Below the pieces are notes generated by a model. The model did no database searches. It was not told the origin of the DNA and saw only the letters and a program-made list of their open reading frames with translations. This document shows, piece after piece, positions 51,282 through 59,623 of a stretch of 64,000 nucleotides of DNA (position 1 is the first letter of the stretch; the number at the start of each line of letters is the position of its first letter). Where the stretch lies: NCBI GenBank assembly GCA_035651995.1, contig DASRER010000034.1, positions 62,001 to 126,000 of the forward strand, in the 5' to 3' direction. The translations under genes and the position numbers were made by a program. The stretch is from Terriglobales bacterium. GTDB taxonomy: Bacteria > Acidobacteriota > Terriglobia > Terriglobales > Acidobacteriaceae.

Positions 51282-52094
51282 CTACAGCAACGACTCGATG
51301 CACGTTTCCCTCTCGTGCGGCAGGACCGCATGCGGGACGTCGGGCCCTGTCGCGGCGGGATGTTCGGCGGGATGTTCGGCGCGCTTTGCGAGCGCTTTGC
51401 CCACCAGCAGCAGCGCGGGTGTGGGCAGCGGGTCCACCTTGCCCAACTCGGCGAGCGTTTGCGTGGCGGTCTGCTGCTCACGCGTGGCGGCGCGCGAGAC
51501 AATGATGCAGGGCGTGCCGCGCTCCAGGCCCGCGGCGATCAATTCATCAGCCACGCGGCCGTAGTCGCGTCCGGGCATGTAGATGGCGAGCGTGGCGTCG
51601 CTGCGCGCGAGGCCGTGCCAGTCCGTCGCTTCACCGGCGCAGCGGTTGGCGGTGGTCACGATCAGCGTGGCGGCCGCGCGGCGGTCCGTGAGCGAGCGGC
51701 GCACCGACGCCGCGGCCGCGAATGCGGCGGTTACGCCGGGCACGATCTCGTATTCCACGCCGGCCGCGTCCAGCGCATCCATTTCTTCCCCCGCGCGGCC
51801 GAAGACCAGCGGATCGCCGCCTTTCAGGCGCAGCACGTCGCTGCCGCCGGTGGCGAAGAAGACCAGCAGCGCGTTGATCTGCGACTGCGTGGTGCGCTTT
51901 TCGCCGTGCGGCTTGCCCACGTTCACCAGCAGCGCTTCCGGCCGCGCCAGCGCGAGAATCTCGCCGGAAACAAGATCGTCGTGCAGCACCACGGAAGCTT
52001 CGCCGAGCAAACGGTGCGCTTTGCGCGTGAGCAGCTCGGGATCACCGGGGCCGGCGCCCACCAGGTACACCTTGCCGTTGCGCCTGGCTGTCAT
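51282..52094 (-). CDS. cobA: Uroporphyrinogen-III C-methyltransferase
   Basis: The 270-residue SAM-dependent methylase has VYLVGAGPGDPELLTRKA, VNVGKPHGEKRTTQSQIN, VLRLKGGDPLVFGRAGEE and YEIVPGVTAAFAAAA, all classical SUMT motifs. It converts uroporphyrinogen III to precorrin-2 for siroheme. It overlaps the precorrin-2 dehydrogenase by 4 bp. The C-terminus has a His/Pro-rich tail (AEHPAEHPAATGPD) outside the conserved fold. Confidence 0.94.
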   Translation of the reverse strand: MTARRNGKVYLVGAGPGDPELLTRKAHRLLGEASVVLHDDLVSGEILALARPEALLVNVGKPHGEKRTTQSQINALLVFFATGGSDVLRLKGGDPLVFGRAGEEMDALDAAGVEYEIVPGVTAAFAAAASVRRSLTDRRAAATLIVTTANRCAGEATDWHGLARSDATLAIYMPGRDYGRVADELIAAGLERGTPCIIVSRAATREQQTATQTLAELGKVDPLPTPALLLVGKALAKRAEHPAEHPAATGPDVPHAVLPHERETCIESLL

Positions 52095-52741
52095 CCAGCC
52101 TCCTCACGTTTCCGCACCAGGTGTAGGCCGCTGCCTCGCTGCCGCCCGAGCGCCTGCGCGGCCAGGTCATGCAACCGCTGCTTGCGCGCTTCGCCCGGCG
52201 CCTCGGCGGCAAGCACGCTGCGCCGCTCGCGGCCTATCGCGCTCACAAGGTCCTCGTACTCGGGACCGAACTGCGCCTCGAGCTGCTGGCGAAGCTGCTG
52301 CGCCATGGCCGGGCTCTGTCCCGCGGTCGAGATGGCAATCTGCAGGTCGCCGCGGCGAACGACCGCCGGGAAATAGAAGTCACAGTAGTCGGGATCATCC
52401 ACCACGTTGCAGAGCACGTTGCTCTGCCGCGCGAGCGCGGCAACGGTGTGGTTCACGTCGGGCGATGACGTGGCGACAATCACGACAAAGATGCCGCGCA
52501 GGTCGTCGGCGCGAAACGGACGCGGGTCGAACGCGATCGCGCCGGCGCCGGCCCAGCGCAGAATGCGCGGCGTGGCGCGTGGCGCCACCACCCGCACCTG
52601 CGCGCCCGAACGCAGCAGCGGTTCGATCTTCGACTCGGCGACGCTGCCGGCGCCGGCCACCAGCGCGCGCCGCCCGGCGAGCTTCAGCATGAGCGGAAAC
52701 AGCGCGCGATGGTTCGCGGTATCTGGACGAAGTTCGCTCAT
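52091..52741 (-). CDS. Precorrin-2 dehydrogenase/ferrochelatase (siroheme synthase, CysG N-domain/Met8 type)
   Basis: The 216-residue protein starts with FPLMLKLAGRRALVAGAGSVAESKIEPLL, the NAD-binding motif of CysG-N/Met8. The catalytic region is NVVDDPDYCDFYFPAVVRRGDLQIAISTAGQSPAMA. It oxidises precorrin-2 and inserts iron, completing siroheme for the reductase encoded just upstream. Both ends overlap neighbours by 4 bp. Confidence 0.93.
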   Translation of the reverse strand: MSELRPDTANHRALFPLMLKLAGRRALVAGAGSVAESKIEPLLRSGAQVRVVAPRATPRILRWAGAGAIAFDPRPFRADDLRGIFVVIVATSSPDVNHTVAALARQSNVLCNVVDDPDYCDFYFPAVVRRGDLQIAISTAGQSPAMAQQLRQQLEAQFGPEYEDLVSAIGRERRSVLAAEAPGEARKQRLHDLAAQALGRQRGSGLHLVRKREEAG

Positions 52742-54441
52742 GCTTCCACTCCGTGCGGCGGCGCGCCCGGCGAGGCGTCGCGGAGAACGGCCTCCGTGCG
52801 CTCGCCGGCGGCAAACGTGCGCAACTCGCCCTCGCTGTGGCGCGAGAAAAACTGCCGCAGGTTTTCTCCCGGCGAACGCTGCGCCAGGTAGTGCCGCAGC
52901 AGGCGCTCGATGGCCGCGGGAACTTCTTCGGCCAGGCAGCGGTACCCGATGGGCCGCGCAATCGATTGATGGAGTCCCACCGCGCCGCCCACGCAGAAGT
53001 AATAGGCGTCGCGCATCTCGCCGTTGACCTTGATCTTCTTTCCGTCGAGGCCGATATCGGCGATCCAGTGCTGTCCGCAACTGTTGGGGCAGCCGGTCAC
53101 GTGCAGCTTCAGGTGCTGATCGAATCCCGGCAGGCGGTCTTCGAGCTCTTCCGTGAGCCAGCGCGAAAAACCTTTCGTCTCGGTGATGGCGAGCTTGCAG
53201 AATTCCGATCCGCTGCACGCGATCGCGCCGCGCCAGAACGGCGAACCCTGCACCGGCAGGTCGGCCTGGTTCAGTTCGTGCGCCAGCGCCAGCGCATTCT
53301 GCTCGGGCACGTTGACAATGAGCAGGTTCTGCATGTTGGTGGTGCGCAGCTCGCCGGAACCAAAACGCTCGGCGAGGCCGGCGGCGATGCGCATCTGGGT
53401 GGCGCTGATGCGCCCGCGCAACACCGCCGAGCCCACGTAAACGTATCCCGGCTGTTTCTGCCGGTGGATGCCGACGTGGTCGCGATACACGTCGTTCGGC
53501 GGCTGCTCGGGCACGGCCGGATCGAGCGCAAAGCCGATGCGGCGCTCCAGTTCCTGCTGAAAGCTTTCCGCCGTCCAGCCGTGCCGCAAAAACAGAAACT
53601 TCAGCCGCGCGCGCTCGCGGTTCTCGCGGAGAACTTCGGCGTCGCGAAAAATTTCTGCGATGCCCTTCACCACCGGCGCCACCTGGTTCCAGCGGACAAA
53701 GGCGTTCAGCCGCAACGCCAGAAAAGGATCGGCCGAGAGTCCGCCGCCCACGCGCAATGAAAAACCGGTTTCCGCATGTCCGTTCATGCCCCGCGTGATG
53801 GCGGTGAGACCCACGTCGTTGATCTCCGGATACGAGCACCACACGCGGCATCCGGTGATGCTGACCTTGAACTTGCGCGGCAGGTTGTAGAACTCGGCGT
53901 TGCCCACGAGCATGCGCGTGACCTGCACGGCCAGCGGCGACGCGTCGCAGAGCTCGTCGGCGTCCACTCCGGCCAGCGGGCAGCCGGTGATGTTGCGCGT
54001 GTCGTCGCCGCACGAGCCCATGGTCGTGAGCCCGGCGCGCCACAACGATTCGAGCAGCTCCGGCAGCGCTTCAATCGTGATCCAGTGCAGCTGAACGTTC
54101 TGCCGCACGGTCAGGTCGGCGGCGCCGCGCCCGTAGCGCTCCGTCACATCGGCGATCGTCCGCAGCTGGTGCGAAAGCAGCAGCCCGTTCGGGATCCGGA
54201 TGCGCACCATGAAGTACGGCAGCGCCTTGCCCTCGCCATTCTTGCCGCCCACCACGCCGGCGCCGTCGCCCTGCGTGTACACGCCCCAGGCGCGGAAGTA
54301 CGTGCCCAGCCACTCCGGCGGGATGGAAGCGAAACCGGAGCGCGCGAACGCGCGGATTTCGTCCAGGTGCTCCCACGCGTTTTTCTCGCGCTTCAGGCGT
54401 TCCACACGCTGCGCCTTGGTTTCCTGCACTGCCTGCGCCAT
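52738..54441 (-). CDS. Siroheme 4Fe-4S reductase, probable assimilatory sulfite reductase (ferredoxin type)
   Basis: The 567-residue protein has two ferredoxin-like halves and the siroheme/4Fe-4S ligands Cys409, Cys415, Cys451 and Cys455 (CSGSEFC and CPNSC). NITGCPLAGVD and VSITGCRVWC lie in the first half. NirA and SirA proteins share this fold, so either nitrite or sulfite could be the substrate. The cysteine-rich leader upstream argues for sulfite. The start follows GGGAGG by 3 bases. Siroheme genes are coupled downstream. Confidence 0.9.
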   Translation of the reverse strand: MAQAVQETKAQRVERLKREKNAWEHLDEIRAFARSGFASIPPEWLGTYFRAWGVYTQGDGAGVVGGKNGEGKALPYFMVRIRIPNGLLLSHQLRTIADVTERYGRGAADLTVRQNVQLHWITIEALPELLESLWRAGLTTMGSCGDDTRNITGCPLAGVDADELCDASPLAVQVTRMLVGNAEFYNLPRKFKVSITGCRVWCSYPEINDVGLTAITRGMNGHAETGFSLRVGGGLSADPFLALRLNAFVRWNQVAPVVKGIAEIFRDAEVLRENRERARLKFLFLRHGWTAESFQQELERRIGFALDPAVPEQPPNDVYRDHVGIHRQKQPGYVYVGSAVLRGRISATQMRIAAGLAERFGSGELRTTNMQNLLIVNVPEQNALALAHELNQADLPVQGSPFWRGAIACSGSEFCKLAITETKGFSRWLTEELEDRLPGFDQHLKLHVTGCPNSCGQHWIADIGLDGKKIKVNGEMRDAYYFCVGGAVGLHQSIARPIGYRCLAEEVPAAIERLLRHYLAQRSPGENLRQFFSRHSEGELRTFAAGERTEAVLRDASPGAPPHGVEA

Positions 54442-54452
54442 AAACCTCCCGG

Positions 54453-54491
54453 AAAAGCAAAAGACCCACTCCCGTTGCCGGTGAGTGGGTC
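54453..54491 (-). terminator. Terminator hairpin in the reductase leader (attenuator)
   Basis: On the minus strand GACCCACTC / GAGTGGGTC form a perfect 9-bp stem, then TTTTGCTTTT. The hairpin ends 2 bp before the ribosome site of the reductase, so as a plain terminator it would stop the operon. Its loop carries CGGCAAC, which is complementary to GTTGCCG at the Cys codons of the leader ORF. Confidence 0.75.
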
Positions 54492-54520
54492 CTGAATGAA
54501 TAATTGCCGGTTAAATCAGA

Positions 54521-54601
54521 TCATCCATGATCACTCGCCAGAACGGACACACACCCGCGGCAACAACACATACACGCGGCGTTCTGGCAGATGCACATCA
54601 T
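54521..54601 (-). CDS. Cysteine-rich leader peptide (26 codons, 7 Cys)
   Basis: The short frame reads MMCICQNAACMCCCRGC then VSVLASDHG and stop. Cys codons 12-14 are consecutive. There is no ribosome site, but the promoter places the transcript start about 3 bases before the ATG, so translation could be leaderless. The transcript also forms a stem GCCAGAACG / CGTTCTGGC around the Cys codons. Slow translation at low cysteine could change folding and let transcription pass the terminator downstream. It lies 80 bp upstream of the sulfite reductase-type gene. Confidence 0.75.
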   Translation of the reverse strand: MMCICQNAACMCCCRGCVSVLASDHG

Positions 54602-54611
54602 GGACGCACAA

Positions 54612-54640
54612 AGTACAACACGCGACGCGAACCCTGTCAA
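54612..54640 (-). promoter_or_regulatory. Promoter of the siroheme reductase operon
   Basis: On the minus strand a perfect TTGACA (54640-54635) and TGTACT (54617-54612) are separated by exactly 17 bases. The predicted start is about 54604-54605, only 3-4 bases before the leader ATG at 54601. Confidence 0.72.
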
Positions 54641-54739
54641 ACATCGCCCGCGATGCGGGACGAGCCGTCCCGCCCCGGCGATGCGATATAAAGGATGCGG
54701 CCACGAATTGGCGGGTGCAAAGAATTTTGGGAATACGGC

Positions 54740-55960
54740 ATGAACGAGTTCAGCGAAGAGATCGCCCTGGAAGGCCACATCATCGACTCCTGGGTCCTGC
54801 CCAAGGTCTTCGACGCGGTCATGGACCTGGGCGGCTCCTTTGATCTGAAGGAGATACGCGTCGGCCGCCGCAAAGACGAAACCTCGTTCGCGCGCCTGCG
54901 CGTCATGGCCGACAGCGAGCAGCGGCTCGACCGCATCCTGACCGCGCTGCAGCAGTACGGCGCGGTGCTGGTTTCCAGCAGCGATGTCCACACCGAGCCG
55001 GCGCCCTGCGATGGCGCCCTGCCCGACGGTTTCTACTCCACCACCCACATGCCCACCGAGGTGCGCCTGGGCGGCAAGTGGGTGAACGTGGCCGATACGG
55101 AAATGGACCTGGCCATCGTGGTGGACTCCGCGCGCCGCTCCGCGCGCATGCTGCCGATGGCCGACGTGCGCAAGGGCGACGCCGTCGTGGTCGGCCACGA
55201 GGGTATTCGCGTGCTGCCGCCGCAGCGCGCGCGCGAACGCGAGATCTTTTCCTTCATGGCCAGCGACGTTTCGTCGGAGCGCCCCAAGCGCCTGGTGATC
55301 GACGAGATCGCGCGGCAGATGCGCGAGATCCGCTCGCATGGCGGGAAAATTCTCGTCGTCGCCGGGCCCGCGATCGTGCACAGCGGCGCTGGGGCCTACC
55401 TGGCGCGCATCATCCGCGCCGGCTATGTGCAGGCGCTGTTCGGCGGCAATGCGATCGCCGCTCACGATGTGGAAAGCGTGCTGATGGGCACCTCGCTCGG
55501 CGTCGCCCTCCACAGCGGACAGCCCGTGGAAGGCGGACATCGCCACCACATGGTTGCCATCAACGCCATCCGGCGAGCGGGCTCGCTGCGCGCGGCCGTG
55601 GAGACGGGCGTCCTCCGCGAAGGCGTGATGTACGAGTGCATCCGCAACAATGTCGAGATGGTGCTCGCCGGCTCGGTGCGCGACGATGGCCCGCTGCCCG
55701 ACGTGGTCCTCGACATGACCGAGGCGCAGCGCCGCATGCGCGCCGCTGTCAGGGGCGTGGAGATGGCGCTGATGATCGCCACCATGCTGCACTCCATCGC
55801 CACCGGGAACATGCTGCCCGCGGCGGTGAAGGTGGTCGCGGTGGACATCAACCCGGCCGTCGTCACCAAGCTGGCCGACCGCGGCACCTTCCAGGCGCTC
55901 GGGCTGGTGACGGACGCTGAATTATTTGTGCGCGAGCTGGCCGAGGCGCTCGGCGTTTAG
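54740..55960 (+). CDS. TIGR00300/LOR-SDH domain protein, ornithine cyclodeaminase-like
   Basis: The protein (406 residues from ATG 54740) has an N-terminal domain (ALEGHIIDSWVLPKVFDAVMDLGGSFDL) and a Rossmann-type C-terminal part (GKILVVAGPAIVHSGAGAYLARIIRAGYVQALFGGNAIAAHDVE). This is the architecture of the TIGR00300 family, related to the C-terminal half of arginine dihydrolase/ornithine cyclodeaminase. A role in arginine or ornithine turnover is likely but not proven. It is divergent from the siroheme reductase operon. Confidence 0.8.
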   Translation: MNEFSEEIALEGHIIDSWVLPKVFDAVMDLGGSFDLKEIRVGRRKDETSFARLRVMADSEQRLDRILTALQQYGAVLVSSSDVHTEPAPCDGALPDGFYSTTHMPTEVRLGGKWVNVADTEMDLAIVVDSARRSARMLPMADVRKGDAVVVGHEGIRVLPPQRAREREIFSFMASDVSSERPKRLVIDEIARQMREIRSHGGKILVVAGPAIVHSGAGAYLARIIRAGYVQALFGGNAIAAHDVESVLMGTSLGVALHSGQPVEGGHRHHMVAINAIRRAGSLRAAVETGVLREGVMYECIRNNVEMVLAGSVRDDGPLPDVVLDMTEAQRRMRAAVRGVEMALMIATMLHSIATGNMLPAAVKVVAVDINPAVVTKLADRGTFQALGLVTDAELFVRELAEALGV

Positions 55961-56050
55961 CGCTGCTTTCCGGGACTTCAGTGGTGTGTCTCATGGGAAT
56001 GCGCCGCGAAGAAACGGAGCCACGGAGAAGCTCGTTCTTGTGTTTCTCCG

Positions 56051-56074
56051 CGCCTCCGCGCCTCCGCGCCTCCG
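56051..56074. repeat. Three tandem CGCCTCCG units
   Basis: Three exact 8-bp units lie in a purine/pyrimidine-skewed stretch between genes, next to GGAGAAGC and TTTCTCCGC words that can pair with them. Confidence 0.7.
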
Positions 56075-56111
56075 CGGCTGAGCGAACTACCGCAGGGACA
56101 CGCTGATTTAA

Positions 56112-56252
56112 GACCTGCGCTGCGCCGTGCGCCCCTTCCGCCGCACTTCCGGTTTCACGCCGGCGGCCCTGCTCTCGCTGGTGATCGGCGGCGGCGCCCA
56201 CACCGCCATCTTCAGCGTGAGCGGCGCTCCGCTTGCCCGCCTTCCGGGTTTT
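56112..56252 (+). pseudogene. Remnant of an ADOP-type (MacB-like) permease gene
   Basis: One frame translates as DLRCAVRPFRRTSGFTPAA then LLSLVIGGGAHTAIFSV and SGAPLARLPGF. This matches the start of acidobacterial duplicated orphan permeases (DLRYALR.LR..PGFT..A.LSLALGIGANTAIFSV). No start and no continuation are present; stops follow within about 100 bp. It is the only recognisable content of the 541-bp gap 55961-56501. Confidence 0.65.
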
Positions 56253-56501
56253 GCTGGGCAAAGCATTGGGCTTCGCCTTTCTTTCATTTCAGCAGTCGCG
56301 ACTGAGCGTCGCGTTGCCTATCCTCGACGCGTTATAGACCCCATAACTTTTCTTTCTTAGAAGAAAACCGGATAAGCGCGAGAGGAACTATCAATTGGAC
56401 GCGCCGGCGCCGCTCCGGTACTGTCGCTCGCGGTCGAGTTCTTCGCTCAACCAAAAAAACAATTGAGCGCAGGCATTGGGGAGAAGGCGAGCCGTCTCTC
56501 G

Positions 56502-57803
56502 ATGAGAAGGGTGTTTTTTGCTGCGGTGATGATGTTCTGTTCAGCCATTTCCGTCCCGCCAGGGTGCGCCGCCCAAACCTCCGGCGACGCGCCGCCGGAC
56601 CTCACGCGGCGTGTGCAGGAGCTGGAAAAGCAGTTGGAGGACCTGCGCGGGCAACTGGCCGCATTGCGAAACGCCGGTTCTCTGCTCGGCACAGCGGCAC
56701 GGGGCGCGACCCCGGCAATCACAAACGCGGTCCCGGCGGCGCCGCCGGCAACTTCACCGTCGCTCTCGCGGCTGCTCGGCAACACCACGTTCAGCGGCTT
56801 TGTGGACATGTACTACAGCACGAACTTCAATCAGCCGGCCGCGCGCACGGCCGGACTGCGCTCGTTTGACGTGAACAGCAATCAGTTCGGGCTGAACCTG
56901 GTCGAACTGGTCGCCGACAGGACGCCCGACGTGAACAACAGCCGCACCGGCTATCGCATCGCGCTCGGCTTCGGGCAGGCGATGAACGCGGTGAACGGCA
57001 GCGACGCCGGCGGCCTGAATTTCGCGCAGTATCTGAAGGAAGCCTACTTCTCGTATCTCGCGCCCGTCGGCAAAGGCCTGCAGGTGGACGCGGGCAAGTT
57101 CGTCACGCCGCACGGCGCCGAGGTCATCGAGACCAGGGACAACTGGAATTACTCGCGCGGTCTTTTGTTCAGCTACGCCATTCCCTACTACCACTTCGGA
57201 ATGCGCGCCAGGTACAGCTTCAGCGACAAATACTCGCTCACCGGCTTCTTCGTGAACGGCTGGAACAACGTGGTCGACAACAATACCGGCAAGACCTACG
57301 GGCTGGGCCTGGGCTGGAACCCGACGAAGAAGATCAGCGTCGCGCAGAACTACATGGCCGGCCCGGAGCAGGGCGCCACGAACTCCAACTGGCGCCAGCT
57401 CTCCGATACCGTCGTCACCTGCACGCCCAACCCGCGGCTCTCCCTGATGGCCAACTACGACTACGGCCGCGGCGATCGCGTCGCCGGAGTGAAAGGTCCG
57501 GTGTACTGGACCGGCATTGCCGGCTACGTGCGTTACGCGCTGGGCGAACGCTACGCGCTGGCCACGCGCTACGAGTACTACCTGGACCACGACGGATTCA
57601 CTACGGGCACGGCACAGCACATCCACGGCTTCACCGGAACGTTTCAGCGCGCCATCGCGCAGCACCTGCTCACGCGGCTCGAGTTCCGCCGCGACGTCTC
57701 GAACCAGCCGGTGTTCGCGCGCGGCCCGGGGCTCGACAAGGCGCAGAACACCTTCGCGGCGGGCATGGTCTACATGTTCGACAGCCGCGAAGGCGCGAAC
57801 TGA
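56502..57803 (+). CDS. Outer-membrane beta-barrel porin-like protein
   Basis: The protein (433 residues from ATG 56502) has a signal peptide (RRVFFAAVMMFCSAISVPPGCAAQ). A short coiled coil (LTRRVQELEKQLEDLRGQLAALR) is typical of trimeric porins. A long barrel with alternating aromatic strands follows, such as TFSGFVDMYYSTNFNQPA, YYHFGMRARYSFSDKYSLTGFFVNGWNN and MVYMFDS. It resembles OmpL/DUF1597-type porins often found next to ammonium transporters. It probably lets small solutes cross the outer membrane for the Amt protein 177 bp downstream. Confidence 0.85.
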   Translation: MRRVFFAAVMMFCSAISVPPGCAAQTSGDAPPDLTRRVQELEKQLEDLRGQLAALRNAGSLLGTAARGATPAITNAVPAAPPATSPSLSRLLGNTTFSGFVDMYYSTNFNQPAARTAGLRSFDVNSNQFGLNLVELVADRTPDVNNSRTGYRIALGFGQAMNAVNGSDAGGLNFAQYLKEAYFSYLAPVGKGLQVDAGKFVTPHGAEVIETRDNWNYSRGLLFSYAIPYYHFGMRARYSFSDKYSLTGFFVNGWNNVVDNNTGKTYGLGLGWNPTKKISVAQNYMAGPEQGATNSNWRQLSDTVVTCTPNPRLSLMANYDYGRGDRVAGVKGPVYWTGIAGYVRYALGERYALATRYEYYLDHDGFTTGTAQHIHGFTGTFQRAIAQHLLTRLEFRRDVSNQPVFARGPGLDKAQNTFAAGMVYMFDSREGAN

Positions 57804-57979
57804 GCCTGCCGATGCGCAACCTTGCTTTGTTCGAACGGACGTTGGGCGGCGCCTTGGCGCCGGCATTGCGCGGGAGCCCGGCTTGGGCGCGCAGCACTCA
57901 AACACCCCAACGACCAGTGCTCAAGCCGGCCCGCACCAGAAACGAAGCTGGCATTCAGCGACGAGAACGAGGAGCAAGC

Positions 57980-59623
57980 ATGCAGACCGAATCGAACAGC
58001 GGTAGCGGTACCGGAAGATTTTCGCGACTGTCGCGGCGCCTCCGCGACCGTGAGTGGAGGCGCTACGGCGCCCTGCTGCTCAGCGGCAAGCTCATGGGCA
58101 TCGGCCTGGCGCTGATGATCATGTTCGTTGTCTCCAGCGTCTTCTTCACCACGGCGCTGGCGGCGGCAAGCGAGGTCAGGGCCGCCGACATCGTGAACCC
58201 GATCAACACCGTGTGGACGCTGCTGGCGGCTTTCCTCGTCTTCGGCATGCAGGTGGGCTTCACCATGCTCGAGGCCGGGTTCTGCCGCTCGCGCGAAACC
58301 GTGAACGTGCTCATGGAGTGCATCGTTGACACGTGCCTCTGCGGGCTCCTGTTCTACGCGTTCGGTTTCGCCTTCATGTTCGGCAGCGGCAACGGGTTGA
58401 TCGGCCGCCAGTATTTCTTCCTCCAAGGCGCGCCGCCAACCTACGGGACGACGGGCGTGGCATTCCTGGCGTTCTGGCTGTTCCAGTTCGCCTTCGCCGA
58501 CACCTGCTCGACCATCACCTCGGGCGCGATGATCGGCCGCACAGGCTTCGTCGGCGATCTGCTTTACAGCGTCGGCGTCTCCGGATTCATCTATCCCATC
58601 ATCGGCCACTGGGCATGGGGGCCGGACGGCTTCCTCGCGCTGATGGGGGCCGAAGGACACTTCCTGCCCTCGCTCGGCGCCGGCTTTCACGACTTCGCCG
58701 GCTCAACCGTGGTGCACACCATCGGCGGCTTCATCGCGCTCGCCGGTGCGATTGTGCTCGGCCCGCGCCTGGGAAGGCGCTTCAAGCGCGACGGCGGCGG
58801 GCCCATGCTGCCGCACGACCTGGTGATCGCCGCCAGCGGCGGACTCATTCTGTGGTTCGGCTGGTACGGCTTCAACCCCGGCAGCACGCTTTCGGCGATG
58901 GACTACGAGGGCATCGGGCGCGTGGCCGCCAACACCACGCTGGCCGCCTGTTCCGGCGGATTGATCGCCATGATCGCCGCCTACTTCGCCACCAAAAAGT
59001 GGGACCTGGCGTTCACCGTGAATGGATTTCTGGCCGGACTGGTGGCCATCACCTGTCCCTGTTACTGGGTGAGCCCAGCCGGCGCGATCATTCTGGGGGG
59101 CGTCGCCGGGGTGGTTGTGTATCTGGGCGTAGAGGCGCTGGAGTGGCTGCGCATTGACGATCCCATCGGCGCGGTCCCGGTGCACGGCTTCTGCGGCATA
59201 TGGGGCACGCTGTCGCTGGGCCTGTTCGCCTGCGGAAAGTACGGAGCCACGGGGCAGCTGGCGGCCGACAACTCCGCGCCCCTCACCGGCCTGTTCTACG
59301 GCGGAGGCTGGAAGCTGCTCGAGGCGCAGTTGGTGGGCAGCGCGATCGTCACGGCGTCAACTTTCAGCGTAGCGCTTGCGCTCATGTACCTGGTGCATGC
59401 CACCGGCCAGTTGCGCGTCTCGCGCGCGGGCGAGTTGTTCGGGCTCGACCTGCACGAGCACGGCTTCCCCGCGTATCCCGAGTACGTGATCGCGGCCGGC
59501 GCGTCGCCCGCGGGTTTGCTTGCAGTCTCAGAGCCGGCGGCGGCGAAAGCGGCCAGCGCTTCGGTGCCTCCGGTTGCCATCATCGACACCGGCAGAGCGG
59601 CAGAGGCTTCGGCCGGATCTTAG
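57980..59623 (+). CDS. amt: Ammonium transporter
   Basis: ATG 57980 has GAGGAG 5-7 bases upstream; an earlier in-frame ATG at 57812 has no ribosome site. The 547-residue protein carries Amt signatures: MLEAGFCRSRETVNVLMECIVD, FAFADTCSTITSGAM, DFAGSTVVHTIGG (first pore His) and PVHGFCGIWGTLSLG (second pore His). An extra basic N-terminus with one membrane segment precedes the core, and an Ala-rich C-terminal tail follows. No GlnK/PII gene is adjacent. Confidence 0.93.
   Translation: MQTESNSGSGTGRFSRLSRRLRDREWRRYGALLLSGKLMGIGLALMIMFVVSSVFFTTALAAASEVRAADIVNPINTVWTLLAAFLVFGMQVGFTMLEAGFCRSRETVNVLMECIVDTCLCGLLFYAFGFAFMFGSGNGLIGRQYFFLQGAPPTYGTTGVAFLAFWLFQFAFADTCSTITSGAMIGRTGFVGDLLYSVGVSGFIYPIIGHWAWGPDGFLALMGAEGHFLPSLGAGFHDFAGSTVVHTIGGFIALAGAIVLGPRLGRRFKRDGGGPMLPHDLVIAASGGLILWFGWYGFNPGSTLSAMDYEGIGRVAANTTLAACSGGLIAMIAAYFATKKWDLAFTVNGFLAGLVAITCPCYWVSPAGAIILGGVAGVVVYLGVEALEWLRIDDPIGAVPVHGFCGIWGTLSLGLFACGKYGATGQLAADNSAPLTGLFYGGGWKLLEAQLVGSAIVTASTFSVALALMYLVHATGQLRVSRAGELFGLDLHEHGFPAYPEYVIAAGASPAGLLAVSEPAAAKAASASVPPVAIIDTGRAAEASAGS

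Follow-up and report, generated by a model that had tools for sequence, protein, structure and literature searches.

A putative near-leaderless polycysteine attenuator ahead of probable sulfite reductase and siroheme genes in Acidobacteriota

Introduction

In a Terriglobales bacterium of the phylum Acidobacteriota, a gene for a siroheme-dependent reductase is preceded by a short open reading frame (ORF) rich in cysteine codons, which raises the question of whether this frame serves as a cysteine sensor and by which output it might act on the genes that follow. The locus was analyzed in a stretch of 64,000 nucleotides (hereafter the window, whose first letter is position 1) and in related genomes. 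In attenuators of the trp and his type, the leader peptide carries control codons, an antiterminator and a terminator exclude each other, and the position of the ribosome is the switch.

A 2005 report described runs of Cys codons upstream of cys operons in mycobacteria and Propionibacterium and upstream of cbs in Bifidobacterium; the mycobacterial runs had no conserved terminator hairpins (PMC1262725). The mycobacterial polycysteine ORFs (Canestrari 2020) have been cited as cysteine-responsive leaderless attenuators (PMC13236596, PMC9031893), and these short ORFs are also mentioned in passages of PMC9094748 and PMC4633059; one of the citing passages names the case translation attenuation (PMC13236596). 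For Rhodobacterales, a terminator-type cysteine attenuator has been predicted upstream of cysS in the section on the uORFC-8-2 motif (PMC8632094). As for Acidobacteria, a 2010 survey of premature terminators states, in the part dealing with them, that almost no predicted attenuator had an associated function (PMC2965389), and a search of full-text literature found no report of a cysteine attenuator in this group. Here, anatomy, conservation and modeled folds point to a near-leaderless, cysteine-responsive, ribosome-mediated transcription attenuator of the trp/his type before the reductase and siroheme genes, a reading to which we assign a probability of about 0.86.

The leader ORF and the genes downstream

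A preliminary description of the locus had proposed a near-leaderless frame of 26 codons with seven Cys codons, three of them in a row, behind a TTGACA-17-TGTACT promoter. Translation of the minus strand from 54601 to 54521 confirmed the frame, in which 7 of 26 codons encode Cys and codons 12-14 are consecutive, and the promoter was found as described, with the first ATG 10 nt past the end of the -10 box. If transcription starts 7 nt below that box, the untranslated leader would measure about 3-4 nt. The TGTACT site is missed by a promoter scan that requires A at position 2 of the -10 hexamer. The coordinates of the individual features are listed in Table 1.

Table 1. Predicted and observed features of the leader region and the downstream genes in the window
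Feature	Position	Strand	Basis
-35 box TTGACA	54635..54640	-	read from sequence; spacing to uORF kept in relatives
-10 box TGTACT, spacer 17 nt	54612..54617	-	read from sequence
Predicted transcript start	about 54604-54606	-	inferred position
Polycysteine leader ORF MMCICQNAACMCCCRGCVSVLASDHG, 26 codons and stop	54521..54601	-	translation; conserved in relatives
Strand 1 CCAGAACG, pairs with 54545-54538 CGTTCTGG	54580..54587	-	minimum-energy fold
Control codons TGT-TGT-TGC, Cys 12-14	54560..54568	-	read from sequence
Strand 2 CTGGCGAGTG, antiterminator 5' arm within leader ORF	54532..54541	-	fold of pre-terminator fragment; 2:3 pair counts in relatives
Strand 3 CACTCACCGG, common to antiterminator (2:3) and terminator (3:4)	54478..54487	-	window fold; pair counts
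Intrinsic terminator: hairpin 54492-54463, T tract 54462-54453	54453..54492	-	predicted
Shine-Dalgarno-like GGGAGG of reductase gene, outside terminator hairpin	54445..54450	-	sequence
NirA-type siroheme sulfite/nitrite reductase gene	52738..54441	-	NCBIfam and PDB matches, no NCBIfam cut-off reached
Precorrin-2 dehydrogenase / siroheme synthase N-domain gene	52091..52738	-	TIGR01470 above cut-off
Uroporphyrinogen-III C-methyltransferase gene	51282..52094	-	TIGR01469 above cut-off

Since its matches reached no NCBIfam cut-off, the substrate of the reductase can be named only presumptively. The best solved relative is 1zj8 (E 1.1e-85), deposited as probable nitrite reductase NirA, which we take to be the sulfite reductase of M. 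tuberculosis. The Lys of the motif LPRK(F/Y)K is common to the two proteins and presumably marks sulfite-type enzymes; of two nitrite reductase rows, 3b0l has Asn at this position and 3vlx has Lys. The two genes downstream of the reductase are assigned to siroheme synthesis by their family matches. The reductase adjoins a nitrogen-flavored neighborhood, in which the divergent genes at 54695-59623 encode an ArgZ-like ornithine cyclodeaminase (TIGR00300), a BBP2-type porin and an ammonium transporter.

Predicted terminator and antiterminator in the window

The preliminary description had missed both the intrinsic terminator between the leader ORF and the reductase gene and the antiterminator that would exclude it. 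The terminator hairpin is GC-rich, has a predicted energy of -23.7 kcal/mol (with one extra T) and is followed by TTTTGCTTTT. The minimum-energy fold of the whole leader has a z score of -4.26 against 200 shuffles, and most of the GGGAGG is paired with upstream leader sequence in it. A comparison of 54000-55200 with Rfam gave nothing above gathering score (best match 18.9 bits against a gathering score of 50), and a sub-threshold ctRNA match coincided with the terminator.

Folding was also computed with a ribosome on the leader, under the assumption that its footprint reaches 10 nt beyond the A-site codon. For a ribosome at codons 13-15, the RNA beyond it folds at -22.6 kcal/mol before strand 4 exists, and 14 of the 20 nt around strand 3 are paired upstream; with the ribosome at the stop codon, the corresponding values are -3.6 kcal/mol and 6 of 20 nt. 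Under the assumed footprint, strand 2 would be left free by a ribosome at the control codons and covered by one at the stop codon. The occupancy of strand 3 is not restricted to ribosomes at the Cys run, as 10-17 nt are occupied for ribosomes at codons 2-17 and release begins at codon 18. Once strand 4 is present, moreover, the terminator is the more stable structure at every ribosome position at equilibrium. Given both observations, specificity would have to come from the sites at which ribosomes stall and from kinetics.

Conservation of the leader in related genomes

The conservation of the leader was examined in reductase loci from three sources: 80 named loci (the best 80 of 576); 29 loci, not counting that of the window, taken from 200 same-family genomes, of which 151 had a match; and 60 more regions picked by hand down part of the same-family match list. 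With the window counted once, these made 170 loci, of which 3 were removed for having less than 200 nt of upstream sequence and 17 as duplicates that matched another locus exactly over the last 120 nt; 150 were left. Each upstream ORF (uORF) received a Cys-uORF score of n^2/length, and dinucleotide shuffles served as control. A score of at least 1 was reached in 93 of the 150 real regions compared with 29 of 6000 shuffles; the sequences are related, so such counts are not independent.

The full architecture was defined as at least three Cys codons, two of them adjacent, together with a terminator that lies 15-60 nt past the stop and has an energy of -12 kcal/mol or lower. It was present in 116 of 139 non-identical acidobacterial regions and in 0 of 11 titled Rokubacteria or Methylomirabilota, so that the Cys codons of the preliminary description are retained among relatives. 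The 23 acidobacterial exceptions comprise seven regions that carry a Cys ORF and in which the terminator is weak, distant or absent, and 16 that fail, among which six carry sub-threshold ORFs containing Cys (L069, L129, L140, L141, L144 and L165). In seven regions (L122, L123, L128, L133, L135, L150 and L172), a long gene-like frame ends 19-60 nt before the reductase, and a cysH-like end can be read by eye in this frame in L123 and L133; with such a frame just upstream, no leader would be expected, a pattern suggesting that the leader is tied to the front of the operon. L123 was nevertheless counted among the seven exceptions with a deficient terminator because of a short Cys ORF within its upstream gene.

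The uORFs of the relatives contain 3 to 10 Cys codons, and outside a C-terminal SGAGRLLT-like tail, which is kept in many of them, it is mainly the Cys codons that recur. The coding signal is mild, with a synonymous share of changes of 29% in frame and of 20% and 18% off frame. Codon choice is distinctive: the uORFs use TGT 328 times and TGC 180 times, whereas the reductase genes use them 94 and 777 times, respectively, and among the non-Cys pyrimidine-ending codons of the uORFs the two endings are about equally common (385 T, 407 C). TGT is therefore favored as the control codon.

The predicted near-leaderless start also recurs. The promoter was taken independently as the best -35/-10 pair in 110 nt, and the start codon was chosen second; among the 126 regions with a uORF score of at least 0.4, 124 could be scored (L050 and L060 could not). 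In 105 of the 124, the distance between the end of the -10 box and the first in-frame start is 6-13 nt, with peaks at 7 and 10, compared with 10 of 218 cases in the two other frames. The same holds for 99 of the 114 scorable acidobacterial regions with the full architecture, so that this part of the preliminary description extends to the relatives as well. In three Acidobacteria genomes, the predicted share of leaderless genes averaged 13.3% (PMC3160421), which makes leaderless initiation plausible in the phylum.

Conservation of the proposed switch

In the same 126 regions, a terminator, the T tract being part of the call, was found between the uORF stop and the reductase start in 123, compared with 45 of 378 shuffles, and an energy below -12 kcal/mol was reached in 118 regions and 7 of 378 shuffles. 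The terminator begins 22-33 nt past the uORF stop in 104 of the 123. In 21 of the 123 (e.g., L004, L009, L018, L023, L085 and L087), the hairpin ends at most 12 nt before the reductase start; there, the 3' arm of the hairpin may at the same time be the ribosome-binding site, so that the hairpin could act on translation as well as on termination.

Duplex scores of single loci were modest for strands 2 and 3 (median z -1.7; in 54 of 118, no more than 5 of 100 shuffles did equally well) and weaker for strands 1 and 2 (median z -1.2). As these values are too weak to decide, pairs were counted on an alignment of 83 leaders (up to L121) selected for a strong terminator. The antiterminator counted there joins UCUGGCG..GGG..UGCUGA of the uORF tail with UCGGCA..CCC..CGCCAGA, and the terminator joins AACCCACCGCCAG with CUGGCGGUGGGUU. 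Cells changed on both sides numbered 51 for the antiterminator (shuffled mean 23.6) and 32 for the terminator (shuffled mean 8.9), neither being reached in 500 column shuffles, although the structures came from folds of the same alignment, which favors them. Pairs with two-sided change numbered 12 (6/500) and 7 (5/500), respectively, and further pair types of the terminator did not exceed the shuffles (189/500); the shuffles ignore relatedness, so that these fractions are not probabilities.

Controls in which the partners were slid by 1-3 columns gave a mixed picture. Paired cells made up 81% for the antiterminator and 86% for the terminator and fell to 33-51% after sliding, but pairs with two-sided change were not fewer in the slid controls (9-14 compared with 12, and 4-9 compared with 7), so the number of such pairs does not discriminate. 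The shared strand 3 and the pair counts of both structures nevertheless argue for an antiterminator that excludes the terminator, a feature likely to be common to the aligned leaders.

The geometry of the leader is recurrent. In 60 of 81 leaders, 13 nt separate the end of the longest Cys run from strand 2, and in 68 of 81 the distance from the end of strand 2 (taken as 11 nt) to the stop codon is 12 nt. With these spacings, strand 2 would just be clear of a ribosome that has the last Cys codon in its A site but would be covered by a ribosome that has reached the stop codon; the recurrent distance from Cys run to strand 2 thus fits a readout by ribosome position, which the 13-nt and 12-nt spacing makes directly testable. 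The window itself departs from the family: strand 2 lies 18 nt beyond codon 14 and ends 8 nt short of the stop, and the antiterminator of the window is shifted in register relative to the alignment and contains a mismatch.

Proposed mechanism and alternative explanations

From the anatomy of the leader and its conservation, we infer translation, stalling and termination at this site. RNA polymerase would start about 3-4 nt before the ORF, and a ribosome would load on the 5'-proximal AUG. When Cys-tRNA is scarce, the ribosome would stall at the Cys codons and cover strand 1, so that strand 2 could pair with strand 3 before the polymerase has reached strand 4; with strands 2 and 3 paired, the terminator could not form, and the reductase and siroheme genes would be transcribed. 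When Cys-tRNA is plentiful, the ribosome would reach the stop codon and cover strand 2, and the terminator of strands 3 and 4 would halt transcription before the reductase gene.

The same parts could also work as described for mycobacteria, in that a stall on the polycysteine ORF would uncover the ribosome-binding site of the present reductase gene and the hairpin would mainly sequester that site. Such translation attenuation, so named for the mycobacterial case in passages citing Canestrari 2020 (PMC13236596), would suit the 21 of 123 relatives in which the hairpin lies within 12 nt of the reductase start and strand 4 could be the ribosome-binding site, and the GGGAGG of the window is mostly paired upstream in the minimum-energy fold. 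Sequestering, however, needs no T tract, yet one follows the hairpin in 123 of 126 regions and in only 45 of 378 shuffles; the start of the hairpin 22-33 nt past the uORF stop in 104 of 123 regions suits termination, and the GGGAGG of the window stands outside the hairpin. We therefore consider translation attenuation as the main output unlikely, and transcription attenuation of the trp/his type accounts better for these features.

Two further explanations would dispense with a cysteine sensor. It is very improbable that the ORF encodes a functional cysteine-rich small peptide, binding metal or serving a redox role, ahead of an ordinary leaky terminator. The conserved SGAGRLLT-like tail and the mild excess of synonymous changes in frame would agree with a peptide, but the tail is encoded by the antiterminator arm, so that RNA pairing explains it; elsewhere, mainly the Cys codons recur, at 3 to 10 per ORF, and the recurrent distances between Cys run, strand 2 and stop would be left unexplained. 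Coincidence, in which a Cys-rich frame arose by chance between divergent genes and the hairpin has nothing to do with it, is hardly credible. Short GC-rich frames with several Cys codons do arise, and 354 of 6000 shuffles scored at least 0.5, but a score of at least 1 separates 93 of 150 regions from 29 of 6000 shuffles, and the full architecture is conserved in 116 of 139 acidobacterial regions.

Relationship to known attenuators

The leader agrees with trp and his attenuators in having codons for the end product, an intrinsic terminator before the first structural gene and an excluding antiterminator, and differs from them in the presumed sensing of cysteine, the predicted near-leaderless start and its occurrence in Acidobacteriota. 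With the mycobacterial polycysteine ORFs, as far as these are described in the citing passages, it has in common a short ORF with a Cys run before cysteine or sulfur genes, predicted here to be near-leaderless, and a proposed sensor in the speed of the ribosome on Cys codons. The output is different: translation attenuation is described there, whereas a conserved intrinsic terminator and an antiterminator are present here, in another phylum. The attenuator of the siroheme reductase operon put forward in the preliminary description is supported as a probable polycysteine sensor, with an output unlike that described for mycobacteria. The mycobacterial pattern of a Cys run near the stop and no conserved terminator, given in the passage of PMC1262725, is not found here, where the run occupies codons 12-14 of 26 and the terminator is conserved.

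The uORFC-8-2 motif resembles the leader in its short ORF with tandem Cys codons in the first stem, its following intrinsic terminator and the ribosome-mediated attenuation by Cys-tRNA proposed for it; it differs in controlling cysteinyl-tRNA synthetase, in occurring in alphaproteobacteria and in having two conserved Cys codons, and the section on this motif mentions no leaderless start (PMC8632094). The acidobacterial leader represents a new combination, in a new phylum and across a family, of the known trp/his logic with the known polycysteine sensor. A major soil phylum thereby gains a concrete and testable candidate for an amino-acid sensor, and two distant phyla seem to have come to use leaderless polycysteine ORFs, an unusual kind of sensor, but to have coupled them to different outputs.

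Cysteine-rich leaders at other genes

The reductase leader is not an isolated case: it recurs throughout the family, some members of which also have Cys-rich leaders ahead of cysD. The PF01507 matches of this genome form one cluster consisting of a ThiS-family ORF, cysD, an EF-Tu-like GTPase gene (cysN-like) and a second, cysH-like PF01507 frame. In the sample of related genomes (22 cysD regions, taken from the 21 of 60 genomes in which a match was obtained), a Cys ORF scoring at least 1 lies within 300 nt in 8 of 22 regions compared with 21 of 2200 shuffles, and one scoring at least 0.5 in 15 of 22 compared with 230 of 2200; 3 of the 22 regions contain no Cys ORF. Among 14 cysD leaders picked for their Cys ORF, a terminator closely follows this ORF in 7, and a promoter lies 6-13 nt from its start in 8. 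An extreme Cys ORF, MKSTSHLRCCCCHACCACRGFVRACMCCCC*, was observed upstream of cysD in L246, with no terminator called in the 150 nt past its stop; another mode of control is possible there.

In the genome under study, the ThiS-family ORF upstream of cysD (L228:394-738) extends about 20 residues beyond its GG motif into ...AGVCRAMCCCAGAHTRPRRYR*, with MCCC near its 3' end and a terminator of -18.0 kcal/mol 27 nt past the stop, a short polycysteine stretch and terminator thus standing at the 3' end of a protein gene. Taken alone, this tail is a weak candidate for a cysD leader, with a Cys score of 0.60 and no good promoter. No convincing Cys leader was found at cysS and two cysK-like genes of this genome, and the genome search gave no match over the cut-off for cysE and none for the PF01747 sulfurylase.

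Considering these observations, the cysD operon is likely a further member of the regulon, with a firmer case in the relatives than in the genome under study. A broader proposal is that Acidobacteriota have a lineage-wide regulon in which near-leaderless polycysteine ORFs with intrinsic terminators control the two halves of sulfate assimilation, namely the cysD operon and the sulfite reductase/siroheme genes, arisen independently of the mycobacterial ORFs, acting by termination instead of masking of the ribosome-binding site and possibly having one sensor in frame within a ThiS-like 3' tail; we lean slightly toward this proposal. Cys leaders could also help to recognize sulfur-assimilation genes in uncultured genomes.

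Beyond this family, 16 of 20 reductase upstream regions from other acidobacterial families are without a short ORF of at least three Cys codons. Weak Cys ORFs only were found in L203 and L216. Clear Cys ORFs, each accompanied by a terminator, were found in two regions: that of L207 has five Cys codons and lies about 18 nt from its -10 box, and that of L215 has nine Cys codons and lies 7 nt from its -10 box.
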